Below are positions 29,681-64,000 of a stretch of DNA of 64,000 nt, piece by piece. Both the position numbers and the translations under genes were made by a program. The notes beneath the pieces were generated by a model. The model searched no databases and was not told the origin of the DNA. It saw only the letters and a list, made by a program, of their open reading frames with translations. Origin of the DNA: Virgibacillus ndiopensis (GTDB lineage: Bacteria > Bacillota > Bacilli > Bacillales > Amphibacillaceae); the NCBI RefSeq assembly GCF_900187325.1, contig NZ_FZMZ01000006.1, positions 372,001-436,000 of the forward strand, in the 5' to 3' direction. Each line of letters starts with the position of its first letter. Positions within the stretch are counted from its first letter, which is position 1.

Positions 29681-31324
29681 TTATTTTATTTCTTTGTCCT
29701 GCATGGCTTCTAATGCTGAACGTTTTGACTCTCTATTCTTCCGCTTTCGCAGACGTTCTACTATTTCACGTCGATTGATATGAATTGTAGGTGGCTCATA
29801 GTCCTTTGATTCCTGTATATCCGTATTGGATGCTTTCATAAATGACCAGGCAAGTAAAAACATGATAAAGATAACAGGGAACCCAGCAACAATACTAGCG
29901 GTCTGCAATGTTTCTAAATCCCCCACAAACATTAATACAAGTGGTAACAAACATAGTGTAAAAGCCCAGAATAGACGATTCCAGCGCAGAGGTTCTGATT
30001 GTACTTCCTTTTGAACAACAGCTGCTAGAATGTAGGAAGATGAATCAAATGTCGTTGCTAAAAATATAACTGCAAGAATTGTAAATAATGCAATCATGAT
30101 ATTTCCCATGGGAAGCTGATGCAGGATCTCAATAATCGCAGCTGGTGCACCATGTTCATTCATGAAGCCTATCACATCAAAACTTCCTGAAAGCTGCAGA
30201 TAAAGTCCAAAGTTACCCATAATGCCAAAGAAAAGAACACAACCTAATGTACCGTATATCATCGTACCTAAAATCATTTCCCGGATTGTTCTCCCCCGAG
30301 AAATTCGTGCAACAAACAAGCCAACAAACGGTGCATATACGACCCACCATGCCCAATAGAAAATAGTCCATGATTCTGGGAATTTAGTTTCGTTAAATCC
30401 TGCCAAGTTACCAAATGGTTCTAACCATGTTGCCATATGGAAAAAGTTATCCATGATAATTCCAATACTTGAGAATGTTGTTTCGCTAATAAATAATGTG
30501 GGACCGAATAAGAAGATGAATCCTAGTACGAAGATGGCAAGCCATAAATTTATATCACTTAAAACCTTTATCCCTCTTTTTAACCCAGAATAGGCACTAA
30601 CAGCAAATATTAGCGTACAAATTAGCATTATAACTGCCTTCATTCCAAGTGTAATTGGGATTCCTGTCAGTTCATTTACTCCTTCTGCAATCATAGGTGT
30701 CCCTAATGCAAGGGTAGTACCTGCACCACCCATTAGTCCAAACATAAATAGTACATCGATAATGACACCGACTGGTCCGTCAACCAATCGTCCAAGGACA
30801 GGTCGAGTCGCTTCACTAATTTTAAGAACAGGTTTTTTTCGAACATAGTAGAAATATGCAATTGGTAATGCTGGTAATGTGTATATAGCCCAAGCGATTG
30901 GCCCCCAATGAAAGATACCATAAGCTGATGCCCATTCAATTGCATCTTTTGATTCTGGAGTAATACCAAATGGTGGCCCTTGATAATAATACGCCCATTC
31001 AATCATTCCCCAATAAAGAATACTTGAACCAATACCAGCAGCAAATAGCATTGCTGCCCATGAAAAAGTTCCAAATTCTTTTTTTGCATCTTTGTTTCCC
31101 AGCTTGATATGACCATTTTTACTGAAGGCTACAAACAAAAGAAAAGCAAATGCAGCCAGTCCAACTAATAAATAAACAACACCAAAATTTCCGGTCATGA
31201 AGTTGTTCGCTGTATTAACCACTTGTGCACCTTGTTCAGGAAAAAGAATAAGTGGTATAGATACACCTAAAATAAGTATTAAAGCCCCTAAAAAAGTTGG
31301 CCAATCAATTAGCTTAGCATTCAT
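29681..31324 (-). CDS. BCCT-family betaine/carnitine/choline transporter (copy 1)
   Basis: A 547-residue sodium- or proton-coupled carrier with twelve helices. The BCCT core is present: SSILYWGMIEWAYYYQGPPFG (helix 3-4 region), IFHWGPIAWAIYTLPALPIAY, and the helix-8 stretch SWTIFYWAWWVVYAPFVGLFVARISRGRTIREM with the aromatic box. The basic C-terminal tail (RLRKRKNRESKRSALEAMQD) is typical of osmotically regulated members. Start ATG lies ~14 bases after gaaagga, the same layout as copy 2. Divergent from the GbsR-like gene across the long inverted repeat. With the carnitine enzymes next door, L-carnitine is the likely substrate. Confidence 0.92.
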   Translation of the reverse strand: MNAKLIDWPTFLGALILILGVSIPLILFPEQGAQVVNTANNFMTGNFGVVYLLVGLAAFAFLLFVAFSKNGHIKLGNKDAKKEFGTFSWAAMLFAAGIGSSILYWGMIEWAYYYQGPPFGITPESKDAIEWASAYGIFHWGPIAWAIYTLPALPIAYFYYVRKKPVLKISEATRPVLGRLVDGPVGVIIDVLFMFGLMGGAGTTLALGTPMIAEGVNELTGIPITLGMKAVIMLICTLIFAVSAYSGLKRGIKVLSDINLWLAIFVLGFIFLFGPTLFISETTFSSIGIIMDNFFHMATWLEPFGNLAGFNETKFPESWTIFYWAWWVVYAPFVGLFVARISRGRTIREMILGTMIYGTLGCVLFFGIMGNFGLYLQLSGSFDVIGFMNEHGAPAAIIEILHQLPMGNIMIALFTILAVIFLATTFDSSSYILAAVVQKEVQSEPLRWNRLFWAFTLCLLPLVLMFVGDLETLQTASIVAGFPVIFIMFLLAWSFMKASNTDIQESKDYEPPTIHINRREIVERLRKRKNRESKRSALEAMQDKEIK

Positions 31325-31457
31325 ATAAAAAACTCAATCCTTTCTGATTTCACTTCGTCGCAGCGGGATGTCTTACATGTAGTAAAATTGAATAGTTAAG
31401 AAATAAATGGAGATATGTTAACCTAACACCTTCATTATGGTAAGGGCTAATATTTAG

Positions 31458-31508
31458 TTTGTAAACTTTATAAACTATATAAATTTTTTTGTTTATAAAG
31501 TTTACAAA
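31458..31508. promoter_or_regulatory. 18-bp perfect inverted repeat, candidate GbsR-type operator
   Basis: TTTGTAAACTTTATAAAC (31458-31475) and GTTTATAAAGTTTACAAA (31491-31508) are exact inverted copies separated by 15 bp. Each arm is itself nearly symmetric (GTTTA ... TAAAC/GTTTAC). It is centred between the divergent BCCT and GbsR-like genes and should bind a dimer or two dimers of the regulator. Confidence 0.7.
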
Positions 31509-31619
31509 TTAAAATTCGTCAAATTTCTCTAAAATGCTTAAAATTACTTTATTATTTGTAGTTTTATTGAAAATTTATTTTATGTTACAGTTCCATAAGG
31601 CATAGATGAAAAGGAGATT

Positions 31620-32162
31620 ATGATGCGAAACAATCCAGGTGAAATTTCTGATGTGAAAACACAGTTTATCGAAAAAATCGCTGATAATATGAACTATTTT
31701 GGTGTCTCAACTAGTGTAGGGCGTGTTTTGGGAATAATTTACATGCAGCGTGAACCAATGACGTTGGACGAGTTATCTGCTGAAACAGGTATGAGCAAAA
31801 CACGTATGAGCCAGGTTGTACGTGAAATGATTGACTATAATATCGCTGAACGTGTATTTAAAAAGGGCGTTCGAAAGGATTTATACCAAGTTGAACAAGA
31901 TTATTATCAAACCTTTGTGTTCTTGTTTACGTCTACATGGCAAAAAGCAATTAATAAAAGCAAACACTTTGAGAAGAGGCTGCAAACACAGTTGAAACTG
32001 TTGCAGGAGGAACGTAATTTAACGGAAGAAGAGGAACAAACAGTTAATGAGATATTAATAGAAATCCGTGAATGGATGGATTATTATGATTGGATTAGTC
32101 GTTTGGTCGATTTTTTCGAAAGTGGAGAAATATTTAAACATGTACCTAAAAAGAGAAGATAA
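31620..32162 (+). CDS. GbsR-family (MarR-like) regulator of osmolyte genes
   Basis: A 180-residue winged-helix protein. The DNA-binding part (about 25-85) reads VGRVLGIIYMQREPMTLDELSAETG, MSKTRMSQVVREM and then the wing ERVFKKGVRKDLYQV; the C-terminal part is a long coiled helical dimer arm (FEKRLQTQLKLLQEERNLTEEEEQ) and a closing WISRLVDFFESGEIF. These match GbsR/OpuAR, which in B. subtilis sense choline and repress glycine-betaine synthesis genes. Start ATG 31620 (or 31623) after aaggaga. It is followed 15 bp on by the carnitine-degrading enzymes, so carnitine or betaine may be its ligand (inference). Confidence 0.85.
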   Translation: MMRNNPGEISDVKTQFIEKIADNMNYFGVSTSVGRVLGIIYMQREPMTLDELSAETGMSKTRMSQVVREMIDYNIAERVFKKGVRKDLYQVEQDYYQTFVFLFTSTWQKAINKSKHFEKRLQTQLKLLQEERNLTEEEEQTVNEILIEIREWMDYYDWISRLVDFFESGEIFKHVPKKRR

Positions 32163-32177
32163 TTTGGAGGAATTAAA

Positions 32178-33074
32178 ATGGCAAAGAAAAATGTTATATT
32201 ATCATGTGCTGTAACAGGTGCCGGGGAAACAACAGGGAAAAGTCCGCATGTACCGGTCACACCTAGGGAAATAGCTGAATCGGCTATAAAAGCTGCCAAG
32301 GCAGGCGCGACAATTGCACATATTCATGTACGCGATCCACAAACAGGAAAATTAAGTCATGATGTGAATCTTTTTAATGAAGTGGTGGAACGTATTCGAG
32401 AATCGGAAACAGATATCATTATTAATATTACCGCTGGTGGTGGTGGTGATTGGGTACCAAGTGAGGCTGATTCAACTAAAGGCGGAGAAGGAACCGACAT
32501 GCAAACACCTGAAGAGAGGCATGAACCGGTTGAATTGTTGCTTCCAGAAATATGTACATTGGACTGTGGAAGTATAAATTTTGGTAATCAGTTATATATA
32601 AGTCCGACTGATTGGCTCCGTAAGCAAGCGAAATTAATTCAGGCAAGCGGCGTCAAGCCTGAGCTTGAATGTTTTGATACTGGTCATGTACGTTTCGCCA
32701 ACCAACTGGTGAATGAAGGGTTAATTGATGGTGATCCGTTGTTCCAATTTTGCCTAGGCATTCCTTGGGGAGCTGACGCAGATGCGGAAACACTTGCATA
32801 TATGAGAAGCCGAATTCCTGAGAATGCAAAATGGGCTGCTTTTGGAATCGGTCGCATGCAAATGGAAATGGTTGCGCAATCGACTCTTCAAGGCGGAAAT
32901 GTTCGTGTTGGGCTGGAAGATAACCTTTACTTGAAAAAAGGCGTGTTAGCAACAAACGAGCAGCTTGTTGATAAAGCACTTGGGATTATTCAAAGCTTAG
33001 GTAAAGATGTTATGTCGCCGACAGATGCTCGTGATTATTTAAACTTACGAAATCCTAATGGAAAGGTTGAATAA
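32178..33074 (+). CDS. BKACE-family beta-keto acid cleavage enzyme (3-dehydrocarnitine cleavage, CdhC-like)
   Basis: A 298-residue TIM-barrel zinc enzyme of the DUF849 family that condenses a beta-keto acid with acetyl-CoA and cleaves it. The zinc-ligand motif AHIHVRDPQTGKLSHD lies at about residues 46-61, after GKSPHVPVTPREIAESA; PELECFDTGHVRFANQL and GLEDNLYLKKGVLATNEQLV are the other family blocks. Next to carnitine dehydrogenase, its substrate is expected to be 3-dehydrocarnitine, giving betainyl-CoA and acetoacetate, as for CdhC of Pseudomonas. Ribosome site ttggaggaa. One base separates its stop from the next ATG. Confidence 0.88.
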   Translation: MAKKNVILSCAVTGAGETTGKSPHVPVTPREIAESAIKAAKAGATIAHIHVRDPQTGKLSHDVNLFNEVVERIRESETDIIINITAGGGGDWVPSEADSTKGGEGTDMQTPEERHEPVELLLPEICTLDCGSINFGNQLYISPTDWLRKQAKLIQASGVKPELECFDTGHVRFANQLVNEGLIDGDPLFQFCLGIPWGADADAETLAYMRSRIPENAKWAAFGIGRMQMEMVAQSTLQGGNVRVGLEDNLYLKKGVLATNEQLVDKALGIIQSLGKDVMSPTDARDYLNLRNPNGKVE

Positions 33075-33075
33075 T

Positions 33076-34038
33076 ATGACAACGCAGATTAAACACATCA
33101 CAGTAGTAGGTACTGGAGTAATTGGGAATGGGTGGATCACCCGATTTTTAGCAAATGGCTATCGTGTAACAGCATTCGATGTGGACCCGGCAGCTGAGGG
33201 GCGTATGCGAGAAGCGGTGAAAAATGCCTGGCCAGCGATGGAGAGAGCAGGACTAGAAGAAGGTGCATCCATTGATAACTTATACTTTGAACAGGATCTT
33301 GAAGTAGCAGTTCGTAATGCGGACTTTATTCAGGAAAATGTTCCGGAGCGTGAGGCATTGAAACGTAGCGTAATAGCTGAAATTGATCAGTCAGCTAAAA
33401 AAGAAACAATCATTGCATCAAGTACCTCAGGGATTCTGCCAAGTACTCTCCAGGCTGATTGTACGGAAAATCCTGAACGGGTAATGGTAGCACATCCATT
33501 TAATCCCGTTTATTTAATGCCGCTTGTGGAATTAGTTGGCGGTAACGCTACTAATCCGGCTTTTATTGATAAGGCAAAAGAGTTTTATCGTGCATGTAAC
33601 ATGAAACCACTTGTAATAAGACAGGAAATCGAGGGTCATGTTGCCGATCGTTTGATGGAAGCAATCTGGCGCGAGGCGCTTCATATAGTCAATGATGGTG
33701 TAGCAACAACAGAAGAAGTAGATGCCTCAATTGTATATGGACCGGGCCTGCGTTGGGCATTGATGGGACCATTTCTTACGTTGCATATGGGTGGTGGCAA
33801 ACAAGGAATGCGCCATTTACTAGAACAATTTGGCCCAGCATTAAAACTACCATGGACTAAGCTAGTAGCACCTGAATTAACTGATGAGCTCGCTGAAAAA
33901 GTAATTTCTGGTTGTGAGCAACAAACAGCAGGTGTTAATATGGACGATTTAGAAACACGCCGTGATCAGTTTTTGATTGAATTACAGGAATTATTGGAAA
34001 AATATTGGCCGGCAGCCAGTTTGACAGGTAAACTTTAG
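33076..34038 (+). CDS. L-carnitine dehydrogenase (3-hydroxyacyl-CoA dehydrogenase fold)
   Basis: A 320-residue NAD-dependent enzyme that oxidises L-carnitine to 3-dehydrocarnitine. The Rossmann motif VVGTGVIGNGW is at residues 9-19, the catalytic His is in VMVAHPFNPVYLMPLVELVGG, and the dimer domain has EGHVADRLMEAIWREALHIVNDG and GPGLRWALMGPFLTLHMGGG. The last two blocks separate carnitine dehydrogenases from ordinary 3-hydroxybutyryl-CoA dehydrogenases. ATG 33076 is chosen, with aaaggttg upstream in the BKACE gene; the longer frame from 33058 overlaps that gene. Middle gene of the three-enzyme set. Confidence 0.9.
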   Translation: MTTQIKHITVVGTGVIGNGWITRFLANGYRVTAFDVDPAAEGRMREAVKNAWPAMERAGLEEGASIDNLYFEQDLEVAVRNADFIQENVPEREALKRSVIAEIDQSAKKETIIASSTSGILPSTLQADCTENPERVMVAHPFNPVYLMPLVELVGGNATNPAFIDKAKEFYRACNMKPLVIRQEIEGHVADRLMEAIWREALHIVNDGVATTEEVDASIVYGPGLRWALMGPFLTLHMGGGKQGMRHLLEQFGPALKLPWTKLVAPELTDELAEKVISGCEQQTAGVNMDDLETRRDQFLIELQELLEKYWPAASLTGKL

Positions 34039-34054
34039 GTGGGGGAGGTTACGT

Positions 34055-34528
34055 ATGATGGTTGGAAAAGTAATTATCAAAGATAACGTTCGTAAGGAGT
34101 GGATTGATTATAATGGTCACATGAATGATGCTGAATATGTACGGGTATTCAGCTGGGGTGTTGACCGCTTTATGAAAATAATCGGTATTGACGATACATT
34201 TCGTGAGGAAAACAACTATACTATTTTTACAATGGAAAGTCATGTTTGTTATTTAGCCGAAATGAAGATTGACGAACCAATTGAGGTCCACTTGTCCATT
34301 ATTGATTACGATGCAAAACGAGCACACGTCTTTTTTGAACTATATGGTGCTGATGGAAAGCGTGCTGCAACGAGTGAACAAATGCTAATGGGGATGAATC
34401 AATTAACTGGACGACCAGGGCCATTTCCGGATAGAATCTTAGCAAATATAAAAGAACTTGCCGCCAGACATACACCTAAAAAGAAACCGGGAGAAGTGGG
34501 TCGTGTAATCGGAATTAGACGAAAATAA
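34055..34528 (+). CDS. Hotdog thioesterase (betainyl-CoA thioesterase, CdhB-like)
   Basis: A 157-residue hotdog-fold protein. WIDYNGHMNDAEYVRVFSWG (about 13-32) contains the Asn-Gly-His-Met turn and the acidic residue on the central helix used for hydrolysis in 4-HBT-like thioesterases. Third enzyme of the carnitine set, so it should release glycine betaine and CoA from betainyl-CoA. Start ATG (34055 or 34058) follows gggggaggtt. Its 3' end faces the second BCCT gene across a bidirectional terminator. The function is inferred from neighbours as much as from sequence. Confidence 0.85.
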   Translation: MMVGKVIIKDNVRKEWIDYNGHMNDAEYVRVFSWGVDRFMKIIGIDDTFREENNYTIFTMESHVCYLAEMKIDEPIEVHLSIIDYDAKRAHVFFELYGADGKRAATSEQMLMGMNQLTGRPGPFPDRILANIKELAARHTPKKKPGEVGRVIGIRRK

Positions 34529-34535
34529 TAAGTGG

Positions 34536-34573
34536 AAAGGAGCTATTCTGGAATGAACTGAATAGCTCCTTTT
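34536..34573. terminator. Bidirectional terminator between carnitine operon and second BCCT gene
   Basis: AAAGGAGCTATTC pairs perfectly with GAATAGCTCCTTT around a 12-nt loop, with a T run on the right and an A-rich run on the left. Confidence 0.9.
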
Positions 34574-34591
34574 TGGGTATTTTAAAAGTAA

Positions 34592-36202
34592 TCATTTTTT
34601 TCCTTTATTCTCTAATGCCTCCAGTGCTGAGCGACGCGACTTGCCTTTTTTAACGATGTGAATAGTAGGTGCCTCATATGTATCAGAAGCACGAATATCT
34701 CTGTTCGATGCTTTCATAAACGACCATGCTAGGAGAAACATGATGAAAATGATTGGAAAGCCCGCTACAATACTTGCTGTTTGTAACGTTTCCAAATCTC
34801 CAAGGAACATTAGCGCTAGCGGAAGAATGCACAGTGTAAATGCCCAAAATAAGCGGTTCCATCGAAGGGGCTCACCTTTTACCTCTTTTTGTGTAACCGA
34901 TGCAAGAATAAAGGATGATGAGTCAAACGTTGTTGCTAGAAAGATTATTGCTAAAACGGTAAACACTGCTACGATTATATGGGCCAGTGGAAGCTGATGC
35001 AGAATTGCAATAATTGCTGCTGGAGCACCGTTTTCATTCATAAATCCAATTACATCAAAAGCTCCTGTAAGCTGAAGGTATAAACCGAAGTTACCCATAA
35101 TTCCAAAAAACAAGATACATCCAATCGTACCATAGATCATTGTTCCGAGAATCATTTGCTTAATGGTGCGTCCACGTGAAATACGTGCAACGAACAACCC
35201 TACGAATGGAGCATATACAAGCCACCATGCCCAATAAAAGATTGTCCATGATTCAGGGAAGCCTGTCTTATTAAACCCTGCTAAATTGCCAAATGGCTCT
35301 AACCATGTTGCCATTCGGAAAAAATTATCAGCAATTAACCCAATACTACTAAAACTGGTTTGGCTAATGAAAAGTGTCGGTCCAAATAGAAAAATAAAAA
35401 CAAGAACAAAAATAGCAAGCCATAAATTTACATCACTCAATATTTTAATACCTCTGCTTAACCCTGAATAAGCACTAATAGCAAAAATTAATGTACATAA
35501 CAGCATAATAACTGTTTTTAAGCCAAGTGTAATGGGGATTCCTGTCAGATCATGCACGCCTTCTGCAATCATTGGTGTACCTAGTGCCAACGTTGTACCA
35601 GCACCACCCATTAAACCGAATATAAATAATACATCTATTATTACCCCTAATGGACCATCAACGAGTTTTCCAAGAACTGGACGTACTGACTCACTAATCT
35701 TTAATACTGGTTTTTTTCGAACGTAGTAAAAGTAAGCAATTGGCAGTGCTGGTAATGTGTATATTGCCCAGGCAATTGGCCCCCAGTGAAAAATACCATA
35801 CGAAGAAGCCCACTGAATTGCTTCATTTGATCCAGGGTTGATTCCAAAAGGTGGTCCCTGGTAATAATATGCCCACTCGATCATTCCCCAGTACAAAATA
35901 CTCGACCCAATTCCCGCAGCAAACAACATTGCAGCCCAAGAAAAAGTACCGAACTCTGTTTGTTCTCCTCTACTCCCTAATTTAATACGACCATTTTTAC
36001 TGAAGGCGACAAATAGAAGAAATGCAAATGTTAATAGCCCCATAAAAAGGTAGAGTACACCAAAGTTTTCAGTCATAAATGTATTAGCTAGATCGACAAC
36101 TTTTTTTCCTGCCTCTGGAAACAGCATTAATGGGATTGTAACTCCCAATACTAAAATAAGTGATCCTATAAAGGTCGGCCAGTCAATCAATTTTGTCTGC
36201 AC
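34592..36202 (-). CDS. BCCT-family transporter (copy 2, paralogue of copy 1)
   Basis: A 536-residue carrier nearly the same as the protein at 29681-31324 over its whole length, including WGMIEWAYYYQGPPFG, WGPIAWAIYTLPALPIAY and WTIFYWAWWLVYAPFVGLFVARISRGRTIKQM. The C-terminal tail is shorter and differs (KKGKSRRSALEALENK). GTG 36202 is preferred to ATG 36214: it lines up with the start of copy 1 (QTKLIDWPTF against NAKLIDWPTF) and has the same long gap from gaaagga. Likely one of a duplicated pair with different affinity or control; substrate probably carnitine or betaine. Confidence 0.9.
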   Translation of the reverse strand: MQTKLIDWPTFIGSLILVLGVTIPLMLFPEAGKKVVDLANTFMTENFGVLYLFMGLLTFAFLLFVAFSKNGRIKLGSRGEQTEFGTFSWAAMLFAAGIGSSILYWGMIEWAYYYQGPPFGINPGSNEAIQWASSYGIFHWGPIAWAIYTLPALPIAYFYYVRKKPVLKISESVRPVLGKLVDGPLGVIIDVLFIFGLMGGAGTTLALGTPMIAEGVHDLTGIPITLGLKTVIMLLCTLIFAISAYSGLSRGIKILSDVNLWLAIFVLVFIFLFGPTLFISQTSFSSIGLIADNFFRMATWLEPFGNLAGFNKTGFPESWTIFYWAWWLVYAPFVGLFVARISRGRTIKQMILGTMIYGTIGCILFFGIMGNFGLYLQLTGAFDVIGFMNENGAPAAIIAILHQLPLAHIIVAVFTVLAIIFLATTFDSSSFILASVTQKEVKGEPLRWNRLFWAFTLCILPLALMFLGDLETLQTASIVAGFPIIFIMFLLAWSFMKASNRDIRASDTYEAPTIHIVKKGKSRRSALEALENKGKK

Positions 36203-36272
36203 GGAAAAAATCATTCCTTTCTTGATGCTATCTCTTTAGTATGTTTTATTTAAAAAATGTTAAACAAACTTC

Positions 36273-54748: not shown

Positions 54749-55972
54749 TTAATGAACTAGCTTTTTAACAGATCTTTCATATTCCTTCCATTGCTCCTTC
54801 AATATTCTTTTTCCTTTTTTCACTTCTGGATGAAATTGAATATATGCTTTATCTCTTGTTAGTTCAATAGATTGAATGGAATGTTGGATATCTACATCTA
54901 ATCCGCTTATCCCAGCATTTTCTGCTATCGACAATCCAGCTGTAACCCCTTGGGCTATAGCAACTTTTGCCCCCTCAATACCGGTAATATTGCCCGCAAC
55001 GTATAACCCGTCTAACGTTGTTTCCATACGCTCATTATGTAAAGGGACATAACCGCCTAATTCGTCAATTAAATAAAATGGGCATCCTGCAACTGCGGCT
55101 AATTCTGTCAATGGGTATAGTCCTCCGGCAATGCAGACAAAATCACAAGCTATGTTTTCCTCACTTCCAGAGACTACCTCGCCATTCGCATCTATTGTTG
55201 CCGACGTTATCCCTTCTACTTCACCGTCACCGTAAATATTAATTACTGCTTTCCTTAGCTGGATCGGGATATCCCACATTTTCACACCTTCTTTAGGATA
55301 AAAAGTAACACCCATTTTTTTCATGAAATCATTTTTCATAAGTTTGCTGCCAAACCGAATAAGCGGAGATGGCGCCATGTGGGATACGTGGAGCAGGGAT
55401 TCCAGCACATCTTTTGGTTGTGCAGCATTTTTCGTGATTTTGTTCAACTTTGGTAATGTCAGGCAAGCAACGTCAATTCCCGCTAGCTGTAATTCCATGG
55501 CAATTGCAGCAGAAAGAACATTTACACCAATGATGACCCCTCGTTCTCCCGGCTTAACCCTGTGAACGTTTGTCATCACTTGTGCCGCGCCAACAGACAT
55601 AACCCCGGGTAATGTCCAGCCTGGTACTGGTACTGGGGATTCAGCAGCTCCTGTTGCCAGTAATAAATGATCTGTATTAAATGTATGTTTATCTGTATAA
55701 ATTACCCAACTTTGATCCAATTTTTCTATGTTATTTACGGGTGTATTCAATTGAAATTGAATACCTAAGTCTACTGCATGTTCATATAAACTAGTGGATT
55801 CTTGAATACCATTCCACCATGATCCATTGGGTTCTTCGTAAAGTTGCCCCAAGAGTCTACCACCTGGCTTCATGTATTCATCTATGATCAAGACCCCTAA
55901 ACCTTTTTTAGCACATGTTATTCCTGCAGATAATCCTGCAGGTCCTGCCCCGACAATGATAACGTCATTCAT
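54749..55972 (-). CDS. FAD/NAD-binding subunit of an HcnB/D-hydroxyproline dehydrogenase-type complex
   Basis: A 407-residue flavoprotein of the pyridine-nucleotide-disulfide reductase fold. The first FAD motif is DVIIVGAGPAGLSAGITCAKKG (residues 3-24); ATGAAESPVPVPGWTLPGV and a second dinucleotide region (GERGVIIGVNVLSAAIAMEL) follow; YVAGNITGIEGAKVAIAQG is the C-terminal FAD contact. Relatives are the alpha subunits of hydrogen cyanide synthase, opine oxidase and heteromeric D-hydroxyproline dehydrogenase. The usual C-terminal BFD iron-sulfur domain is absent and is encoded separately two genes upstream. ATG 55972 overlaps the previous gene by 8 bases. It should pass electrons from the DAO-type subunit at 58632. 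Confidence 0.85.
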   Translation of the reverse strand: MNDVIIVGAGPAGLSAGITCAKKGLGVLIIDEYMKPGGRLLGQLYEEPNGSWWNGIQESTSLYEHAVDLGIQFQLNTPVNNIEKLDQSWVIYTDKHTFNTDHLLLATGAAESPVPVPGWTLPGVMSVGAAQVMTNVHRVKPGERGVIIGVNVLSAAIAMELQLAGIDVACLTLPKLNKITKNAAQPKDVLESLLHVSHMAPSPLIRFGSKLMKNDFMKKMGVTFYPKEGVKMWDIPIQLRKAVINIYGDGEVEGITSATIDANGEVVSGSEENIACDFVCIAGGLYPLTELAAVAGCPFYLIDELGGYVPLHNERMETTLDGLYVAGNITGIEGAKVAIAQGVTAGLSIAENAGISGLDVDIQHSIQSIELTRDKAYIQFHPEVKKGKRILKEQWKEYERSVKKLVH

Positions 55973-56303
55973 TTTCAGCACTCCAATCCCTTACCGGTGT
56001 TGGAAGCTTTCCTCCACTTTCAATAACCATTCCTGCTTGAAGTGGTGTAAGGCATGCTCGAACACCTTGCGTTCCATTTACTGTGACTCTGCATTCGAAG
56101 CAATGACCGATATTACAATAAATTCCGCGGGGCGAACCGCTTTCTTCATGGTAACGAAGGGTACGGATTCCGTTAGCTAAGAGTGCAGCTGCAATTGATT
56201 CACTTTCCAGACCTTCATAGTTTTTATTATTAAATGTAAACGAAATATATTTATTGTCTTGTAAATTACCAAGTACAGGATGTTCTAGGATTCGACGGCT
56301 CAT
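55965..56303 (-). CDS. 2Fe-2S ferredoxin-like subunit (HcnA/OoxA gamma type)
   Basis: A 112-residue protein with a plant-type 2Fe-2S fold: GIYCNIGHCFECRVTVNGTQ and VRACLTPLQAGM supply the four cysteines (CxxxxCxxC ... C). The N-terminal strand pair is ISFTFNNKNYEGLESESIAAALLANG. This is the small electron-transfer subunit of HcnABC/opine-oxidase-like dehydrogenases. Its ATG overlaps the stop of the BFD gene (ATGA), and its end overlaps the FAD gene, so all three are translationally coupled. Confidence 0.85.
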   Translation of the reverse strand: MSRRILEHPVLGNLQDNKYISFTFNNKNYEGLESESIAAALLANGIRTLRYHEESGSPRGIYCNIGHCFECRVTVNGTQGVRACLTPLQAGMVIESGGKLPTPVRDWSAENE

Positions 56304-56634: not shown

Positions 56635-58359
56635 TTAAACTTTTATACCTAACTTATTTATACGATTGTAAAGTGTTGCCCTTGTGACCTGAAGATTTTT
56701 AGCACATAATAGTTTATTTCCGCCTACCCTATCCAGTTCTTTAAGAATAATATCTTTCTCTAACTCTTGAACTCTTTCACTCAATGAACGATTGTCAACA
56801 CCGGAGAATATCTTGAGTTTTTCATTGGGTTTATGTGTCACATCTGTTTCGAAGGGGAGGTCATCCAATTTTATTTTACCATCTTCTGAGAATACAATGA
56901 GTCGCTCGACAGCGTTTTTTAGTTCCCTAATATTACCTGGCCATGGATGCTGAAGGAGTGCCTGCATTACACTCTGTGAAATTCCATGAATTGGTCGGTT
57001 GTATTTTATGGATATTTCATGTAGGAAATAATGTGTTAGTTCGATGATGTCTTCTAGGCGTTTTCTTAGTGGTGGAATTTCTATGCTTACCACATTTAAG
57101 CGGTAATAAAGGTCTTCTCTAAATTTACCTTCATTTACAAGTTCATTTAAATCGCGATTTGTTGCTGCTATAACTCTGAAGTCTACTTCTTTTTCCGTTG
57201 TTCCTCCAACAGGATAAAACTTTTTTTCCTGGAGCAACCTTAAAATTTTTACTTGCATCTCCAGTGGCATTTCGCCAATTTCATCTAAAAATAATGTTCC
57301 ACCTTTTGCAAGTTCGACTTTCCCTTTTTTTCCTTTTTGGTCAGCACCAGAAAATGCCCCTTTTTCATATCCGAAAATTTCACTCTCGAATAGGGAGGAA
57401 GGGATGGCACCACAATTGATGGCTACGAATGGGGAGTTTTGAACTTCGCGTATGGTATGCACTGCCTTTGCAAAAAGTTCCTTTCCGACACCGCTTTCAC
57501 CATGTATCAATATATTCGTGTTCGTGGATGCTGCTTTTCTTACTTTATTGATCGTTCGTTTTAAAGCTGGGCTATTCCCTCTGATTTTGATGAAAGGATC
57601 TTCCGTAGACGTTAATTTATTCACTTCTTTTTCTAAATTAAAGAGCCTTTCCGTAGTATCATATAATTCTTTGTTTAATTTGATTTGACTTGTGATGTCT
57701 GATTCAGATACGACTGCACCAATGATTTTCTTATTAAAATACACTGGGTTTGAGTTTATTAATACAACTTGGTTTTCTCTTGCTTTGTGCTGACTATGAT
57801 GAACGGAGGTGCCACTTTCTAGTGTATTTAATATTTCTAAACGATCGGGATTAAAAAAGTCAGTTATGGATTTTCCGATTATTTCTTCTTGTTTGACTGA
57901 AAAAATTTGTTCGGCACCCTTTGTCCATGCCACTACATTTTTATTATTGTCAATTACTGTACAAGATTCATCTATTGTATCGAGAATCGTAGAAATGTAT
58001 GCCTGTACGTACCGATATGCCACGAATAATTCTTTACATAGCTCCTTAGAACCTACATAACCAAGAATCTTTTCATTCTGATCCATAGCCAAAATGTACT
58101 CATGCTCTTCCAATTGTTCTATGACACTAGTAATTTCATCATTTACCGTAATGACACCACATGTCAGGTACTTCAATTGATTTGATTGCTCCTCAGGCAT
58201 GATGTAGTATAGTTCATTCCCGCTAACAAGAAAAACCTTTTTGGGATATTCTGATTTTGCGAACGAATCTACTTCACTTTCCATCACGTTTTCACTATCC
58301 ACTATGACGAACTGGTTATTGATAAAATTTTTGATATCTAAAAAATTTGAAAAAATCAT
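56635..58359 (-). CDS. Sigma-54-dependent transcriptional activator with PAS domain
   Basis: A 574-residue enhancer-binding protein. Residues ~1-110 are an unassigned sensory region with a CBS-like segment (ITSVIEQLEEHEYILAMDQN); a PAS domain follows (~125-235, TILDTIDESCTVIDNNKNVV); then the AAA+ core (~255-480) with Walker A GESGVGKE, the sigma-54 loop GAFSGA (Thr to Ser), Walker B GGTLFLDEIGEM and the arginine-finger region; the C-terminal Fis helix-turn-helix is GGNKLLCAKNLQVTRATLYN. ATG 58359 is chosen, nine bases after aaggga. Located between two sigma-54 promoters, it is the natural activator of the island; proline or hydroxyproline may be the signal. Confidence 0.92.
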   Translation of the reverse strand: MIFSNFLDIKNFINNQFVIVDSENVMESEVDSFAKSEYPKKVFLVSGNELYYIMPEEQSNQLKYLTCGVITVNDEITSVIEQLEEHEYILAMDQNEKILGYVGSKELCKELFVAYRYVQAYISTILDTIDESCTVIDNNKNVVAWTKGAEQIFSVKQEEIIGKSITDFFNPDRLEILNTLESGTSVHHSQHKARENQVVLINSNPVYFNKKIIGAVVSESDITSQIKLNKELYDTTERLFNLEKEVNKLTSTEDPFIKIRGNSPALKRTINKVRKAASTNTNILIHGESGVGKELFAKAVHTIREVQNSPFVAINCGAIPSSLFESEIFGYEKGAFSGADQKGKKGKVELAKGGTLFLDEIGEMPLEMQVKILRLLQEKKFYPVGGTTEKEVDFRVIAATNRDLNELVNEGKFREDLYYRLNVVSIEIPPLRKRLEDIIELTHYFLHEISIKYNRPIHGISQSVMQALLQHPWPGNIRELKNAVERLIVFSEDGKIKLDDLPFETDVTHKPNEKLKIFSGVDNRSLSERVQELEKDIILKELDRVGGNKLLCAKNLQVTRATLYNRINKLGIKV

Positions 58360-58460
58360 GTCATTCAATCCCTTTTTATGTATAAAAAAATTTACACGTT
58401 AAAATTATTTTTACATAGTTAAGTTGGAATATCAACATTATTTTGAATTATTACTAAGTT

Positions 58461-58631: not shown

Positions 58632-59813
58632 ATGAATAACACAATACATAGAGATGTGATCGTGATTGGTGGTGGCATAATAGGCGCAGCTATCTCTTAC
58701 TATTGCTCAAAAGCAGGGATTGATATTACAGTTCTTGAGAAAAAAGAATTAGCTAGTGGTACTTCTTCCAGATGTGACGGAAATATCCTAGCAATTGATA
58801 AAGATCCTGGATTTGATAGCCAAATGTCATTAAGAAGCCAGCAATTAGTGCATGAATTAAATAAAGAATTGGAAACCTCATTTGAATACCGCAATCCTGG
58901 CAGTATTCTTGTTTGCGAGAATGATAATGAATTGGAAGCTGCACAAAAATGGGTACAACAGCAGCAGGAAGCGGGTCTAGACTTCAAGATGTTGGACCGG
59001 GAAGATTTGCGGAATGAGTCAAAGTTTTTTGCTGATGATTTATACGGTGGACTGGAATGTAAAACAGATTCAACCGTGAACCCTTATATGCTAACGTATT
59101 CCATGTTTTATAGTGCACAGAAACATGGGGCGAGAATACATACACACACAGAAGTAAAACGGGTTAACAAAGACCCTTCAGGTCGCTTTGTAATAGAGAC
59201 TAATAACGGAACTTTTACTGCTAACAAAGTGGTAAATGCTTGTGGAGTGTGGGCTCCGCTTATTGGTGAAATGCTGAATGTTGAAATACCAATTAAGCCA
59301 AGAAAAGGTCAATTAATCGTTGCCTCAAGACAGAGGCTGGTTGGATTGAGAAAAGTGATGGAGTTCGGGTATCTTATTTCAAAGTTTGGCGGGGAGCGAG
59401 TAGTAGATCCAGTAACGGAGAAATATGGTGTTGCATTAGTGTTCGAACCCACGGAGAGTCAGAACTTCTTAATCGGAAGTAGCAGGGAGTTTAACGGATT
59501 TGATATCAAAGTAAACCATGAAGTGACAAAATATATCGCAAAAAGGGCTGTTAGATTCTATCCTAAGATGGCTGATATGACTGTTATTAGGCAGTATGCT
59601 GGTCTCAGACCGTGGACCGAAGACCATCTTCCAATTATTTCTCATGTTGATGAAGTCCCGGGATTCTATGTGGCTGCTGGTCATGAAGGGGATGGTATCA
59701 GTTTAGCTGCAATCACTGGAAAGGTTATTGAAGAAATGATTTCTGGCAAAGAAACGACTATACCAATTGAACTGTTACGCCATGATCGATTTAAGGAGAG
59801 GGTGATCAGTTAA
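58632..59813 (+). CDS. DAO-family FAD oxidoreductase, probable D-hydroxyproline/D-proline dehydrogenase catalytic subunit
   Basis: A 393-residue flavoprotein of the D-amino-acid/glycine oxidase fold. The FAD motif DVIVIGGGIIGAAISYYCSKAG is at residues 9-30, followed by ELASGTSSRCDGNIL; RPWTEDHLPIISHVDEVPGF and VAAGHEGDGISLAAITGKV form the C-terminal FAD block. It matches the HcnC/OoxB/LhpB type beta subunit, which oxidises a cyclic imino or secondary amino acid. The electron-transfer subunits are the three genes at 54749-56569. With the racemase next door, D-hydroxyproline or D-proline is the expected substrate. Ribosome site aaaggggga. Confidence 0.82.
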   Translation: MNNTIHRDVIVIGGGIIGAAISYYCSKAGIDITVLEKKELASGTSSRCDGNILAIDKDPGFDSQMSLRSQQLVHELNKELETSFEYRNPGSILVCENDNELEAAQKWVQQQQEAGLDFKMLDREDLRNESKFFADDLYGGLECKTDSTVNPYMLTYSMFYSAQKHGARIHTHTEVKRVNKDPSGRFVIETNNGTFTANKVVNACGVWAPLIGEMLNVEIPIKPRKGQLIVASRQRLVGLRKVMEFGYLISKFGGERVVDPVTEKYGVALVFEPTESQNFLIGSSREFNGFDIKVNHEVTKYIAKRAVRFYPKMADMTVIRQYAGLRPWTEDHLPIISHVDEVPGFYVAAGHEGDGISLAAITGKVIEEMISGKETTIPIELLRHDRFKERVIS

Positions 59814-60836
59814 ATGAATTTTCAACGATTGTTTGAAACCATTGATACACATACTGGAGGAAACCCAACAAGAACGGTTCTTAGTGGTTTACCTAAGCTC
59901 GAAGGCGATACCATGTCCGAAAAGATGCTTTACATGAAAAAACATTATGACTGGATCAGAAAATTTTTAATGAATGAACCAAGAGGTCATGATGTAATGT
60001 CCGGTGCTTTAATGGTAAATCCTTGTCACTCGGATGCTGATATAGGTGTCATTTTTATTGAGACAGGTGGCTACCTTCCAATGTGTGGACACGATACGAT
60101 TGGTTTTTGCACGGCTCTTGTTGAAGCTGGGCTAATTGAAATAATGGAACCATACACAAACCTTAATCTAGATACACCAGCTGGATTGGTGAAAGTAAAA
60201 ATCAAAGTTGAAAATGGAAAAGCAAATGAAGTAACGTTTACAAATGTACCTTCATTTTTACTGAAATCAATTGAAATCGATGTTGAAGATGTTGGTCATG
60301 TGCAATGCGATATCGCGTACGGAGGGAACTTTTACGGAATTATTGATGCCCGAAGGCTGGGGCTTGATTTAACGACTGACAACGCCTCAACCATTATTGA
60401 GCAGGGTATTACAATACGCAATGCCATTAATGCGTCGGTTGAGATTGTTCACCCTGAGCATCCATTTATTAAAGGTTTGACACATATTGAATTTTATACA
60501 GATCCAGTCCATCCAGAGGCAGATCTTAAAAATACAGTAATTGTCCCACCTGGTGGAATTGATCGTTCTCCATGTGGTACAGGTACTTCGGCTAAACTTG
60601 CTGCCATGTTTAGCAAAAACGATATTGGTAAAAATGAGTTATTTATTTATGAAAGTATCGTCGGCACGCTGTTTAAAGCAAGCATCTTGGAAGTAACAAC
60701 TATCAAGGACCATAAAGCAGTTATCCCAGAAGTAACTGGTTCAGCATGGGTGATGGGGATGCACCGCTTTTTCTATAACGAAAAGGACCCATTACGGGAA
60801 GGGTATTTACTTATACCGCCTATGGAAGGTCATTAG
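59814..60836 (+). CDS. Proline racemase/4-hydroxyproline epimerase
   Basis: A 340-residue cofactor-free enzyme that inverts the alpha-carbon of proline or hydroxyproline with two cysteines. Cys 1 lies in GGYLPMCGHDTIG (about 85-97) and Cys 2 in GGIDRSPCGTGTSAKLA (about 246-262); FETIDTHTGGNPTRTV opens the fold. Both catalytic cysteines are intact, so this is an epimerase/racemase, not a trans-3-hydroxyproline dehydratase. The ATG follows the preceding stop directly, so the two are coupled. Converting trans-4-L-Hyp to cis-4-D-Hyp for the dehydrogenase is the likely role; proline racemisation is possible. Confidence 0.9.
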   Translation: MNFQRLFETIDTHTGGNPTRTVLSGLPKLEGDTMSEKMLYMKKHYDWIRKFLMNEPRGHDVMSGALMVNPCHSDADIGVIFIETGGYLPMCGHDTIGFCTALVEAGLIEIMEPYTNLNLDTPAGLVKVKIKVENGKANEVTFTNVPSFLLKSIEIDVEDVGHVQCDIAYGGNFYGIIDARRLGLDLTTDNASTIIEQGITIRNAINASVEIVHPEHPFIKGLTHIEFYTDPVHPEADLKNTVIVPPGGIDRSPCGTGTSAKLAAMFSKNDIGKNELFIYESIVGTLFKASILEVTTIKDHKAVIPEVTGSAWVMGMHRFFYNEKDPLREGYLLIPPMEGH

Positions 60837-60851
60837 GGAGGAGGTATTCAC

Positions 60852-61760
60852 ATGAATTTTGAAAAGATGTTTTCAACTATTGATACACATGTTGCTGGTG
60901 AGGCATTCAGAATTATTATACATTCCGCAATAACGTTGAATGAAAGTAGTTTAGAAATGAATCATGCCTCTATAAAGGAAAAGTACGTTCATGAGAAGGA
61001 ATTGTTGCTGAATGAACCTCGTGGTCACCGTGGGATGAACGGCCTTATCGTGGCTCCTTCTAGGGTGGCTGATTTCGCTTTGCTGTTTGTCAATCATGAT
61101 AGTGGAGTCCGGTTTAAATATGGTGGTTTAGTGACAACCGTAACAGCCTTATTAGAGACGGGAAATTTGGCTAAAAAGGAAGATAACGTATATGAAATTG
61201 AAACAGTAAATGGGATACATTTGGTCTATGCAACGTATGAGGATCAGGAAGTGGAAATGGTCCGCTTTGAAAGTGAAGAATGCCGCGTTATGGAAACTAC
61301 CGAGGAATATGAATTAGTCGAAATAGATAGCAATCGAAATTATTTAATTTATAGTTTGCCAGATTCGATACCAGGTATTCATATGGATTATTTATCTTCC
61401 ATTATTAAATGGGGTAAACAAACTGCTGAAAAAGTAAAAAATACGATTCAGTTCGATGGCATTTTGATTAGGGAACTTTTAGTAAATGGCGTTCGTTCGG
61501 TTACTTTTGAAAACGATGGAAGTATATTACGTTCTCCAGGTATAGATAGTACATTTGCTATTTTTACAGCATTACTAAATGGGTCCGGTAATTTAACAAA
61601 GCTTACAAACCAAAGTATTTTTGACAGTAAATTGACTGCTAGATTAATTGCAGGAACGGATAACCGATTTTCCGTGGAAACACGAGGTTTTGTAACCGGC
61701 ACACATCAGTTTATTTATGATCAGGAAGATCCGCTAAAAAGTGGATTTTTATTGAAATAA
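60852..61760 (+). CDS. Proline racemase-family paralogue lacking both catalytic cysteines
   Basis: A 302-residue relative of the previous protein (MNFEKMFSTIDTHVAGEAFR against MNFQRLFETIDTHTGGNPTR), also sharing LNEPRGHRGMNG and the closing TGTHQFIYDQEDPLKSGFLL. The Cys 1 site reads RFKYGGLVT where PMCGHDT is expected, and the Cys 2 site reads LRSPGIDST where DRSPCGTGT is expected, so neither racemase nor dehydratase chemistry is possible as known. It is ~35 residues shorter than the family. Ribosome site gggaggaggt. It may be a regulatory partner, a heterodimer subunit, or a new enzyme; nothing in the sequence decides. Confidence 0.85.
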   Translation: MNFEKMFSTIDTHVAGEAFRIIIHSAITLNESSLEMNHASIKEKYVHEKELLLNEPRGHRGMNGLIVAPSRVADFALLFVNHDSGVRFKYGGLVTTVTALLETGNLAKKEDNVYEIETVNGIHLVYATYEDQEVEMVRFESEECRVMETTEEYELVEIDSNRNYLIYSLPDSIPGIHMDYLSSIIKWGKQTAEKVKNTIQFDGILIRELLVNGVRSVTFENDGSILRSPGIDSTFAIFTALLNGSGNLTKLTNQSIFDSKLTARLIAGTDNRFSVETRGFVTGTHQFIYDQEDPLKSGFLLK

Positions 61761-61847: not shown

Positions 61848-63272
61848 ATGAGCGCGGAAAAAAGATTGCCAACGTTACCAGAAGTACTATTTGTACTGAT
61901 TGCCTTTATTGTCATTATGTTTTTGTTTGTTGTGCAGCTGGGAATTCCTATTCAACTTGCACTGCTAACAACATGGTTTATGATCATGCTAGTTGGTCTC
62001 CGAATTGGCTACACCTATGCGGAAATGCAGGATGGTATTTTAAAAGGGATTAACGATGGGTTAGAGGCTGTACTTATCCTAATTTCAGTTGGTGCACTGA
62101 TTGGTACATGGATAGCAGGTGGTGTCGTCCCTAGTATTATTTATTATGGGTTGTCAATTATTGACCCTACTATATTTTTAATGGCTGCTTTTATAATCTG
62201 TGCTATTACGTCGTTAGCCACTGGTACATCGTTTGGATCGGCTGGAACTGCTGGTATTGCAATGATGGGAATCGGCGCAAGCTTTGGATTTCCGATTGCG
62301 TTAGTTGCAGGTGCAGTTATATCGGGATGTTATGTCGGGGATAAACTTTCACCATTATCTGACACTACTGTCATGACAGCATCTTTATCTAAGGTTAATT
62401 TAATTGATCATATTAAATCGATGTTATTCGTAAGTACACCGGCATTTATAATAACTGCATTGCTGTTTCTTGGAGCGGGATTCCTTTTTCATAGTGGTGA
62501 TGGCGATTTAAGTCAAGCAAAGTCCACGATGGTTTCATTAAGTGAGTATTTTAACATTACTTGGTATATGTTAATTCCTGCAGCTATTGTAATACTGTTA
62601 CTCGCACTTAAAAAGCCTTCCATACCAGTTATTTTATTTGGTGCGTTACTAGGATCTATATGGGCATTTCTTTTCCAAGATGTGGCCATTTTAGACGCTG
62701 TCAATAGCTTATATTCAGGTAATAACATTGAGTCCGGGGTAGCCTTCATTGACAATCTATTAAACCGCGGTGGTATTGAATTCATGCTTGGTGTCATTGT
62801 ATTAATTCTATTTGCCCTTGGAGTAGGTGGATTAATGGAAAAGATAGGTATTTTGAAAGTAATTTGCATTAAGATGCTAGCGTGGGCAGACAGCGCGGGA
62901 AAGACTACATTAACAACTTTAATTTCTGGCTTTTTCGGTAATTTCTTTGGTGGGGCCGCTTACGTATCCATCATTACAGCGAGTAAAATTACCGAAGAAA
63001 ATTATGATCGCTTGAATATTGATCGACGTGTACTATCAAGAAACACGGAAGCAGGGGGAACGGTTACAACGCCGATGGTACCATGGTCTGATGGCGGTGT
63101 ATTCATGGCTGCGACACTTGGTGTATCAACAATGACTTACCTACCGTTTCTTTGGTTTAACTTTTTAGTTGTAGCAATTTCTATTATATATGGTTTTACA
63201 AATAAATTTATTTGGTACACAAACTCGACTAAAAGAGATGGTGTTACTGATATAAAAGAAAACATTAACTAG
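61848..63272 (+). CDS. NhaC-family antiporter (copy 2), possibly the island's substrate carrier
   Basis: A 474-residue membrane protein with ~11 helices and the NhaC signature: TGTSFGSAGTAGIAMMGIGASFG, GCYVGDKLSPLSDTTVMTA (the SPLSDTT motif), FGNFFGGAAYVSIITASKI and TEAGGTVTTPMVPWSDGG. The last two blocks are typical of NhaC members that sit beside amino-acid catabolic genes and probably exchange an organic substrate with sodium or protons. It lies within the hydroxyproline-type operon, so import of imino acid or export of a product is a fair guess. Ribosome site gggagagtg. Confidence 0.82.
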   Translation: MSAEKRLPTLPEVLFVLIAFIVIMFLFVVQLGIPIQLALLTTWFMIMLVGLRIGYTYAEMQDGILKGINDGLEAVLILISVGALIGTWIAGGVVPSIIYYGLSIIDPTIFLMAAFIICAITSLATGTSFGSAGTAGIAMMGIGASFGFPIALVAGAVISGCYVGDKLSPLSDTTVMTASLSKVNLIDHIKSMLFVSTPAFIITALLFLGAGFLFHSGDGDLSQAKSTMVSLSEYFNITWYMLIPAAIVILLLALKKPSIPVILFGALLGSIWAFLFQDVAILDAVNSLYSGNNIESGVAFIDNLLNRGGIEFMLGVIVLILFALGVGGLMEKIGILKVICIKMLAWADSAGKTTLTTLISGFFGNFFGGAAYVSIITASKITEENYDRLNIDRRVLSRNTEAGGTVTTPMVPWSDGGVFMAATLGVSTMTYLPFLWFNFLVVAISIIYGFTNKFIWYTNSTKRDGVTDIKENIN

Positions 63273-63284
63273 GAGGAAATTATA

Positions 63285-64000
63285 ATGAAAAAACTTGAAG
63301 GCGCATTTCCAGTTCTTATTACACCAATGAATCAAGATGGTGAAGTTAATTATAATGGATTGAAGCAGAACATCGAACACTTTATTAATGAAGGTGTGGC
63401 AGGAATTGTTGTTAACGGAAGTACAGGGGAATTTGTTAGTTTAACGAAGGAAGAAAAGTTTAAAACAGCTGAAGCGGCGGTAGAACAAGTAAATGGCCGT
63501 ATTCCACTTATTGTCGGAACTGCAGCAGAGACGACAGCAGACGCGGTGGAGTATACAAAACATGCCGAGGCAGCGGGTGCAGATGCAGCATTGTTGATCA
63601 ACTCGTATTATGCTCATCCAAAAGACGAAGAAATCTATGTGCACTTTAAAACAATTGCTGAATCAGTCAATTTTCCAATTATGATTTATAACAATCCATT
63701 CACATCGGGTGTAAATATAGGTACTGAAACAATATTAAAGGTTGCACGCGACGTAGACAACATTACCCACATAAAAGAATCAAGTGGAGAAATAAGCAAA
63801 GTTCGCGATATCACTAGACAAGGAAAGGGATTTTTAAAAACATTTTGTGGGGCAGATGACTTGGCATTGGAGTCATTTTTAGTAGGGGCAACCGGCTGGA
63901 TTTCTGTAGCAGGAAACATCGCACCACGATTGGCTACCAATCTTTTTAATACGGTCCAGGAAGGCAACCTTGAAAGGGCATGGGAACTGTATGATCGAAT
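63285..64000 (+). CDS. DapA/N-acetylneuraminate lyase-family protein (3' end outside window)
   Basis: The first 238 codons of a class I aldolase-type TIM barrel, starting MKKLEGAFPVLITPM at ATG 63285 after aggagga and running off the window. NGSTGEFVSLTKEEKF is the carboxylate-binding loop (GSTGE), YNNPFTSGVN supplies the catalytic Tyr, and HIKESSGE the Schiff-base Lys (about residue 163). Family members include dihydrodipicolinate synthase and pyrroline-4-hydroxy-2-carboxylate deaminase. After a D-hydroxyproline dehydrogenase the latter fits: it yields 2-oxoglutarate semialdehyde and ammonia. The specific substrate is inferred from context. Confidence 0.85.
   Translation, partial: MKKLEGAFPVLITPMNQDGEVNYNGLKQNIEHFINEGVAGIVVNGSTGEFVSLTKEEKFKTAEAAVEQVNGRIPLIVGTAAETTADAVEYTKHAEAAGADAALLINSYYAHPKDEEIYVHFKTIAESVNFPIMIYNNPFTSGVNIGTETILKVARDVDNITHIKESSGEISKVRDITRQGKGFLKTFCGADDLALESFLVGATGWISVAGNIAPRLATNLFNTVQEGNLERAWELYDR

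Follow-up and report, generated by a model that had tools for sequence, protein, structure and literature searches.

Activator pseudo-enzymes are known for enzymes other than the one considered here. The S-adenosylmethionine decarboxylase prozyme, for instance, is reportedly a dead paralogue that forms a functional complex with its active partner, as seen in crystal structures; it resembles our case in the dead paralogue and belongs to a different enzyme. In trypanosomatids, an impaired deoxyhypusine synthase becomes 3000-fold more active when it forms a complex with a paralogue that is itself catalytically dead (PMC3663545, available part). This is an analogue from another enzyme and another organism, in which both the complex and the activation were demonstrated, whereas the pair described below, of the intact Cys/Cys protein HypE and its degenerate neighbour (hereafter the partner), is known from sequence alone. 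In the open-licence literature, we found no report of a conserved pair of HypE with a pseudo-enzyme, or of an activator pseudo-enzyme for this superfamily.

Within the 4-hydroxyproline 2-epimerase / proline racemase superfamily (PF05544), proteins lacking one or both catalytic cysteines appeared in print in 2007 (PMC1964878) and 2014 (PMC4113996), here and below as far as the available parts of these papers go. Zhao et al. (2014) described a Ser90/Thr256 dehydratase and sequence clusters without one or both cysteines (PMC4113996), and Ser/Thr homologues of Brucella are listed in PMC1964878. The sequence-only reading of this DNA, which held that known members always keep one cysteine, was therefore wrong on this point. 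The cluster-4 Bacillus proteins, produced alone, were insoluble and were not purified (Zhao et al. 2014, PMC4113996). We only infer, through a weak link, that these proteins belong to the HypE subfamily. The BC2835 primer printed in the same paper reads TDPCHP, like the TDPCHPE of our locus L208, and aligned there with four mismatches. Two recombinant Cys/Cys proteins of Bacillus anthracis were inactive (PMC1964878), which would fit a missing partner but is not counted here as support. These two proteins may belong to another subfamily, because PMC1964878 gives Tyr or His at a pocket position where our alignment has Ser63 in all 63 HypE sequences.

The window, by which we mean the whole stretch of 64,000 nucleotides of Virgibacillus ndiopensis DNA that was analysed, holds HypE and the partner within a larger cluster (Table 1). 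HypE carries the motifs MCGH and DRSPCGTG around its two cysteines and scores 396.3 bits against the Pfam profile Pro_racemase. It stays under all NCBIfam equivalog cut-offs, with 411.6 bits for proline racemase (cut-off 556) and, narrowly, 358.4 bits for 4-hydroxyproline epimerase (cut-off 376). Judged by its neighbourhood and family resemblance, HypE is probably a 4-hydroxyproline epimerase. The common gene order is oxidase - HypE - partner - (NhaC) - DapA-like - aldehyde dehydrogenase, with the PrdR-like sigma-54 activator and a two-gene flavoprotein pair nearby, although the NhaC, DapA and aldehyde dehydrogenase genes are shifted or missing in part of the 40 loci compared. This cluster matches the trans-4-hydroxyproline pathway of PMC4113996, and the known steps of that pathway are covered without the partner.

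Table 1. Features of the HypE locus, in window positions.
Feature	Position	Strand	Basis
FAD/NAD(P)-binding protein, same cluster	54749..55981	-	locus comparison, profile scan
Small protein, weak soxA N-terminal match, same cluster	55965..56303	-	locus comparison, profile scan
Sigma-54 activator, PrdR-like, divergent	56635..58368	-	526.9 bits, below cut-off 795
FAD-dependent D-amino acid oxidase/dehydrogenase-like, gene before HypE	58632..59813	+	locus comparison, profile scan
HypE, intact Cys/Cys relative, 340 aa, probable 4-hydroxyproline 2-epimerase	59814..60836	+	Cys91, Cys254
Ribosome-binding site GGAGGAGGT of partner	60837..60845	+	6/6 match
Partner CDS, putative proline racemase superfamily pseudo-enzyme, 302 aa	60852..61760	+	ATG ORF, Pfam match, orthologues
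Lys89 codon, opposite catalytic Cys1 (Cys91) of HypE	61116..61118	+	ungapped alignment
Tyr90 codon, opposite Gly92 of HypE (Gly after Cys1)	61119..61121	+	Tyr in 32/32 close orthologues
Leu226 codon, opposite Asp250 of HypE	61527..61529	+	alignment
Gly230 codon, opposite catalytic Cys2 (Cys254) of HypE	61539..61541	+	alignment, RSPC to RSPG
NhaC-type transporter	61848..63272	+	514.5 bits, cut-off 370
DapA-family protein, probable Pyr4H2C deaminase, runs off window	63285..64000	+	profile scan; pathway role from PMC4113996 (available part)

Several neighbours deserve a separate remark. The sigma-54 activator, with 527 bits to the proline regulator PrdR, is perhaps a hydroxyproline-responsive relative. 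The DapA-like and aldehyde dehydrogenase genes of the loci L103-L142 come in two kinds, with about 57-90% or 31-40% identity to the reference copies. In the same loci, distances compared with those of HypE gave rho 0.63 for the DapA-like protein, 0.55 for the aldehyde dehydrogenase and 0.96 for the oxidase. Three loci (L105, L107 and L119), two of them from genomes without the partner, have an additional Cys/Cys proline-racemase-like gene of the CGHG type in the same stretch. Elsewhere in the window (29681-36214), two similar membrane transporters surround three genes that, by eye, resemble a carnitine degradation cluster.

The partner is a full-length gene that begins 15 nt after the HypE stop codon, so that it adjoins an intact paralogue, as had been claimed. 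It is a member of the superfamily by its Pro_racemase match (74.1 bits, cut-off 27), and the Pfam scan found no other domain in it. Its identity to HypE is 24%, and it reaches 66.1 bits or less against the NCBIfam equivalogs, whose cut-offs are 376-556. The likeness to the 4-hydroxyproline 2-epimerases and proline racemases lies in the family profile and in the THxxG, NEPRGH and C-terminal DPLxxGF blocks, in agreement with the earlier observation that the opening motif, the LNEPRGH block and the C-terminus are kept. In contrast, the positions of the catalytic Cys, His and Asp are all replaced.

The stretch from F79 to TALLETG is equally long in partner and HypE, and hence the alignment is ungapped here and places Lys89 opposite Cys91 and Tyr90 opposite Gly92. 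Where HypE has MCGH, the partner reads FKYGG, and where the second motif DRSPCGxGxxA would have Cys2 and Asp, it reads LRSPGIDSTFA. The sequence-only reading was right that neither catalytic cysteine is present and that Cys2 became Gly. Its replacement of Cys1 by Tyr was one residue off; Cys1 is indeed absent, but it is Lys89 that faces it, and Tyr90 replaces the Gly that follows. Neither is the copy free of cysteine altogether, since C144 lies outside both motifs; this column has Cys in 21 of 32 close orthologues and Ser or Ala in HypE. Tyr90 stands where, presumably, the Gly that follows Cys1 would contribute its backbone to holding the substrate carboxylate. At this place the Tyr may occupy the pocket or serve to bind another ligand. 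In the proline racemase of Trypanosoma cruzi, Leu127, His132 and Asp296 are named as helpers of catalysis (PMC1964878). By our own numbering, His132 is Cys1 plus 2 and Asp296 is Cys2 minus 4, where the partner has Gly91 (at the position of His93 in HypE) and Leu226. The Ser/Thr trans-3-hydroxyproline dehydratase B9K4G4 (PMC4113996) likewise lacks a catalytic Cys. However, it keeps a catalytic Ser and Thr, whereas the partner has a variable residue, here Lys, and Gly at these sites, with Tyr at the position next to the first.

To extend this comparison, 58 partners (27 from the family, L002, 15 from the order and 15 from a second family, f48; L208 lies outside the alignment) were aligned with 63 HypE sequences, the five additional ones being HypE without a partner. 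All 63 HypE read PMCGHD and DRSPCGTG, with Cys at both sites, whereas Cys is absent from both columns in all 58 partners. Thirteen different residues occur at site 1, with Ser the commonest (22), and site 2 is Gly in 43 partners and one of eight other residues in the remainder. So many different replacements at the catalytic sites fit a relaxed catalytic constraint. Six divergent partners (L100, L101, L102, L183, L184 and L185) have a Cys 1-3 residues before the site-1 column, in a part where the alignment is unsure, and none within four residues of site 2. The partners of L047 and L048, about 200 nt after HypE and on a tree branch of their own, carry Tyr at the very position of Cys1 and Ser at that of Cys2.

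An alternative explanation is that the partner is an enzyme with changed chemistry. It could be, for example, a one-base dehydratase or isomerase whose substrate is another hydroxyproline and which would work with Ser in the Ser/Gly relatives or with Tyr90 in the window copy. The f48 partners speak for it. Twelve of the 15 are of the Ser/Gly type, similar to the Ser90/Thr256 dehydratase (PMC4113996), and eight of these have full SGHG and DRSPGG motifs. The only one scanned (in G604) gave 287.4 bits to Pro_racemase, and hence partners of this type have degenerated little and could be active enzymes. Tyr90 is invariant among the close orthologues, and the best NCBIfam match of the window copy is trans-3-hydroxyproline dehydratase, although its 66.1 bits compare with a cut-off of 540. 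Yet a trans-3-hydroxyproline dehydratase has Cys or Ser at site 1, where the window copy has Lys89, and the His and Asp positions are altered as well. In other genomes, partners have no Ser, no Tyr or no second motif that can be recognised, and the length of two of them is only ~245 aa. A dehydratase would also need a Pyr2C reductase (PF02423 or PF02615). None was found in the ten ORFs around the G604 pair, and the members in the genome of the window copy lie outside the window, on other contigs except for a weak PF02423 match ~297 kb before it. The dehydratase reading is lowered by the lack of a nearby reductase at both loci, new chemistry seems less likely for the window copy, and for the partners as such we regard it as fairly unlikely. 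The active site is better preserved in the Ser/Gly partners of f48 (L162, L172-L182), which may be either intermediates or working one-base enzymes.

Our results also bear on whether the gene is decaying. Among 32 close orthologues, the Tyr90 column is Tyr in all and the Gly230 column Gly in 31, whereas the Cys1 column varies among K, S, Q, H, T, M and N. All 58 partners share the residues D11, H13, G16, R20, E55-G58, D293, G298 and F299. By the NG86 method, dN/dS was 0.11-0.33 for the partner and 0.03-0.155 for HypE, and higher for the partner in each of the 14 pairs (of 15) that could be scored, one of them of the L047 type; synonymous sites were saturated in about half of these pairs. The seven pairs with dS < 1 for both genes gave 0.20-0.33 for the partner and 0.055-0.155 for HypE. 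The mean distance was 1.64 for the partner against 0.44 for HypE, about 3.7 times as large. This faster evolution, together with the shortened copies in G073 and G078, is what a decaying duplicate of the neighbouring epimerase might display. In contrast, there were no internal stops among the partner matches listed in other genomes, the dN/dS values point to purifying selection, the invariant residues persist and the partners fall outside the HypE clade (100/98). We therefore reject decay as very improbable. The invariant residues, combined with the varied replacements at the catalytic sites, indicate a conserved scaffold around a drifting active site, as expected for a structural or regulatory partner rather than for one common new chemistry. 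Like a prozyme, the partner has lost its catalytic residues while its gene stays under purifying selection.

HypE and the partner also occur together. Searches seeded with HypE (E of 1e-100 or better) matched 27 of 159 sampled genomes of the family and at least 20 others among 397 in the order, where at most five candidates per genome were scored and misses are possible. A degenerate proline-racemase-like ORF lies beside HypE in all 27 family genomes, two of them weak matches (G073 and G078; 21-23 bits, ORF about 245-250 aa), and in 15 of the 20 others, or 42 of 47 in total. In the remaining five (G230, G288, G363, G427 and G528), no partner was found in the 18-19 kb around HypE, and thus it is not strictly required. 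The five genomes occupy at least two separate positions in the HypE tree. Alignment columns that separate lone from paired HypE numbered 14, against a random mean of 3.5, a 95th percentile of 10 and a maximum of 43, a comparison that is confounded by kinship and carries no weight here. Conversely, partner matches with E of 1e-40 or better were found in 22 of the 27 family genomes with HypE and in 0 of the 132 without it. In f48, all 15 genomes matched by the partner profile, out of 245, hold the pair, a count open to seed bias because this profile also detects HypE. One genome of family f29 has a Tyr-type pair (HypE in 1 of 43 searched). A phylum-wide search matched 42 of 398 genomes; the 29 loci read besides the window's own, with 12 matched genomes left out, contain relatives of the Cys/Cys and Cys/Thr types, and G604 alone among them has the two genes of a pair side by side. 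Hence two properties proposed as a check, orthologues that keep the Tyr/Gly sites and the gene pair, were both found, and the two findings named as refuting, decay and other cysteines in the active site, were absent, the latter in the window copy and its 32 close orthologues.

The adjacency is tight as well. The HypE stop and the partner start are at most 30 nt apart in 49 of 58 pairs, and the frames overlap in 13 (by a start-codon heuristic). Partner and HypE lie within 250 nt of each other on the same strand in 34 of 35 loci; the corresponding counts are 15 of 22 for partner and NhaC and 8 of 34 for partner and DapA. Over 28 loci, distances of the partner correlate equally with those of HypE and of the oxidase (rho 0.91 each), and the partial correlations (HypE 0.37, oxidase 0.29, DapA 0.29) do not single out HypE. 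Instead of contacting HypE, the partner might be a ligand-binding regulator, for example a hydroxyproline sensor for the PrdR-like sigma-54 activator or the transporter. By our own count, 35 of 40 loci have the activator next to the oxidase gene in divergent orientation, and its distances track those of the partner over the 28 loci (rho 0.90). Yet their partial correlation is -0.07, Pro_racemase is the only domain of the partner, and its fixed neighbour is HypE, with which it stays where the other genes have moved. Such a regulator therefore appears improbable.

The origin of the partners was addressed in a tree of 70 rows, comprising 26 of the 58 partners, 25 of the 63 HypE and 19 others, with the most degenerate partners left out. 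The HypE rows form one clade (100/98) that contains none of the 26 partners, and hence a tandem duplication of the neighbouring HypE is rejected. In the best tree the partners split into more than one group, but a single origin is not rejected (AU p 0.46, for the 26 of 58 partners included). Four Cys/Cys rows (L027, L046, L049 and L054) stand beside the f48 partners in an unresolved fork. Finer placing is unsafe, because the branches are long and the tree has no root.

In summary, the catalytic Cys, His and Asp positions of the partner are altered, its gene is under purifying selection, and it is inherited together with HypE. The sequence-only reading had proposed a kept regulatory or heteromeric partner. 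The part that is supported is a kept partner that would not be a racemase, in view of co-occurrence, adjacency, purifying selection and the lack of a catalytic-site Cys in any lineage seen. We give about an even chance to the reading that this is a catalytically dead protein of the proline racemase fold, kept as a partner subunit of HypE. The two proteins, made from adjacent and sometimes overlapping frames, would then assemble into a hetero-oligomer that either replaces the HypE homodimer or coexists with it. As in a prozyme, the partner's role would be to make HypE more stable or to adjust how active it is, possibly by way of a ligand or with Tyr90 occupying the former pocket. Since some lineages have HypE without the partner, its benefit is likely conditional, a tuning or stabilising one rather than absolute. 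Moreover, the Ser/Gly partners are far less degenerate and may be enzymes, and hence the whole set of partners need not share one role. AlphaFold models, one for the partner by itself and one for a read-through fusion of HypE with it, were built from five or six alignment rows each and had pLDDT 35 and 34, respectively, too low for use.

A bolder version, which we put forward tentatively and hold to be somewhat unlikely, is that the 4-hydroxyproline epimerase of Bacillales would combine, in a heteromer, a Cys/Cys subunit and a dead one drawn from another branch of the superfamily, whose Tyr90/Gly230 pocket would bind substrate or product and set the activity of the live subunit. If true, this would be a prozyme system for a cofactor-free amino acid epimerase. 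More generally, a dead partner subunit of HypE, if the reading is right, could explain why the Bacillus-type 4-hydroxyproline epimerase resisted purification, and would caution against annotating the second gene as a racemase. The nearly 60 natural pairs, from mildly to strongly degenerate, offer material for studying the evolution of dead subunits.
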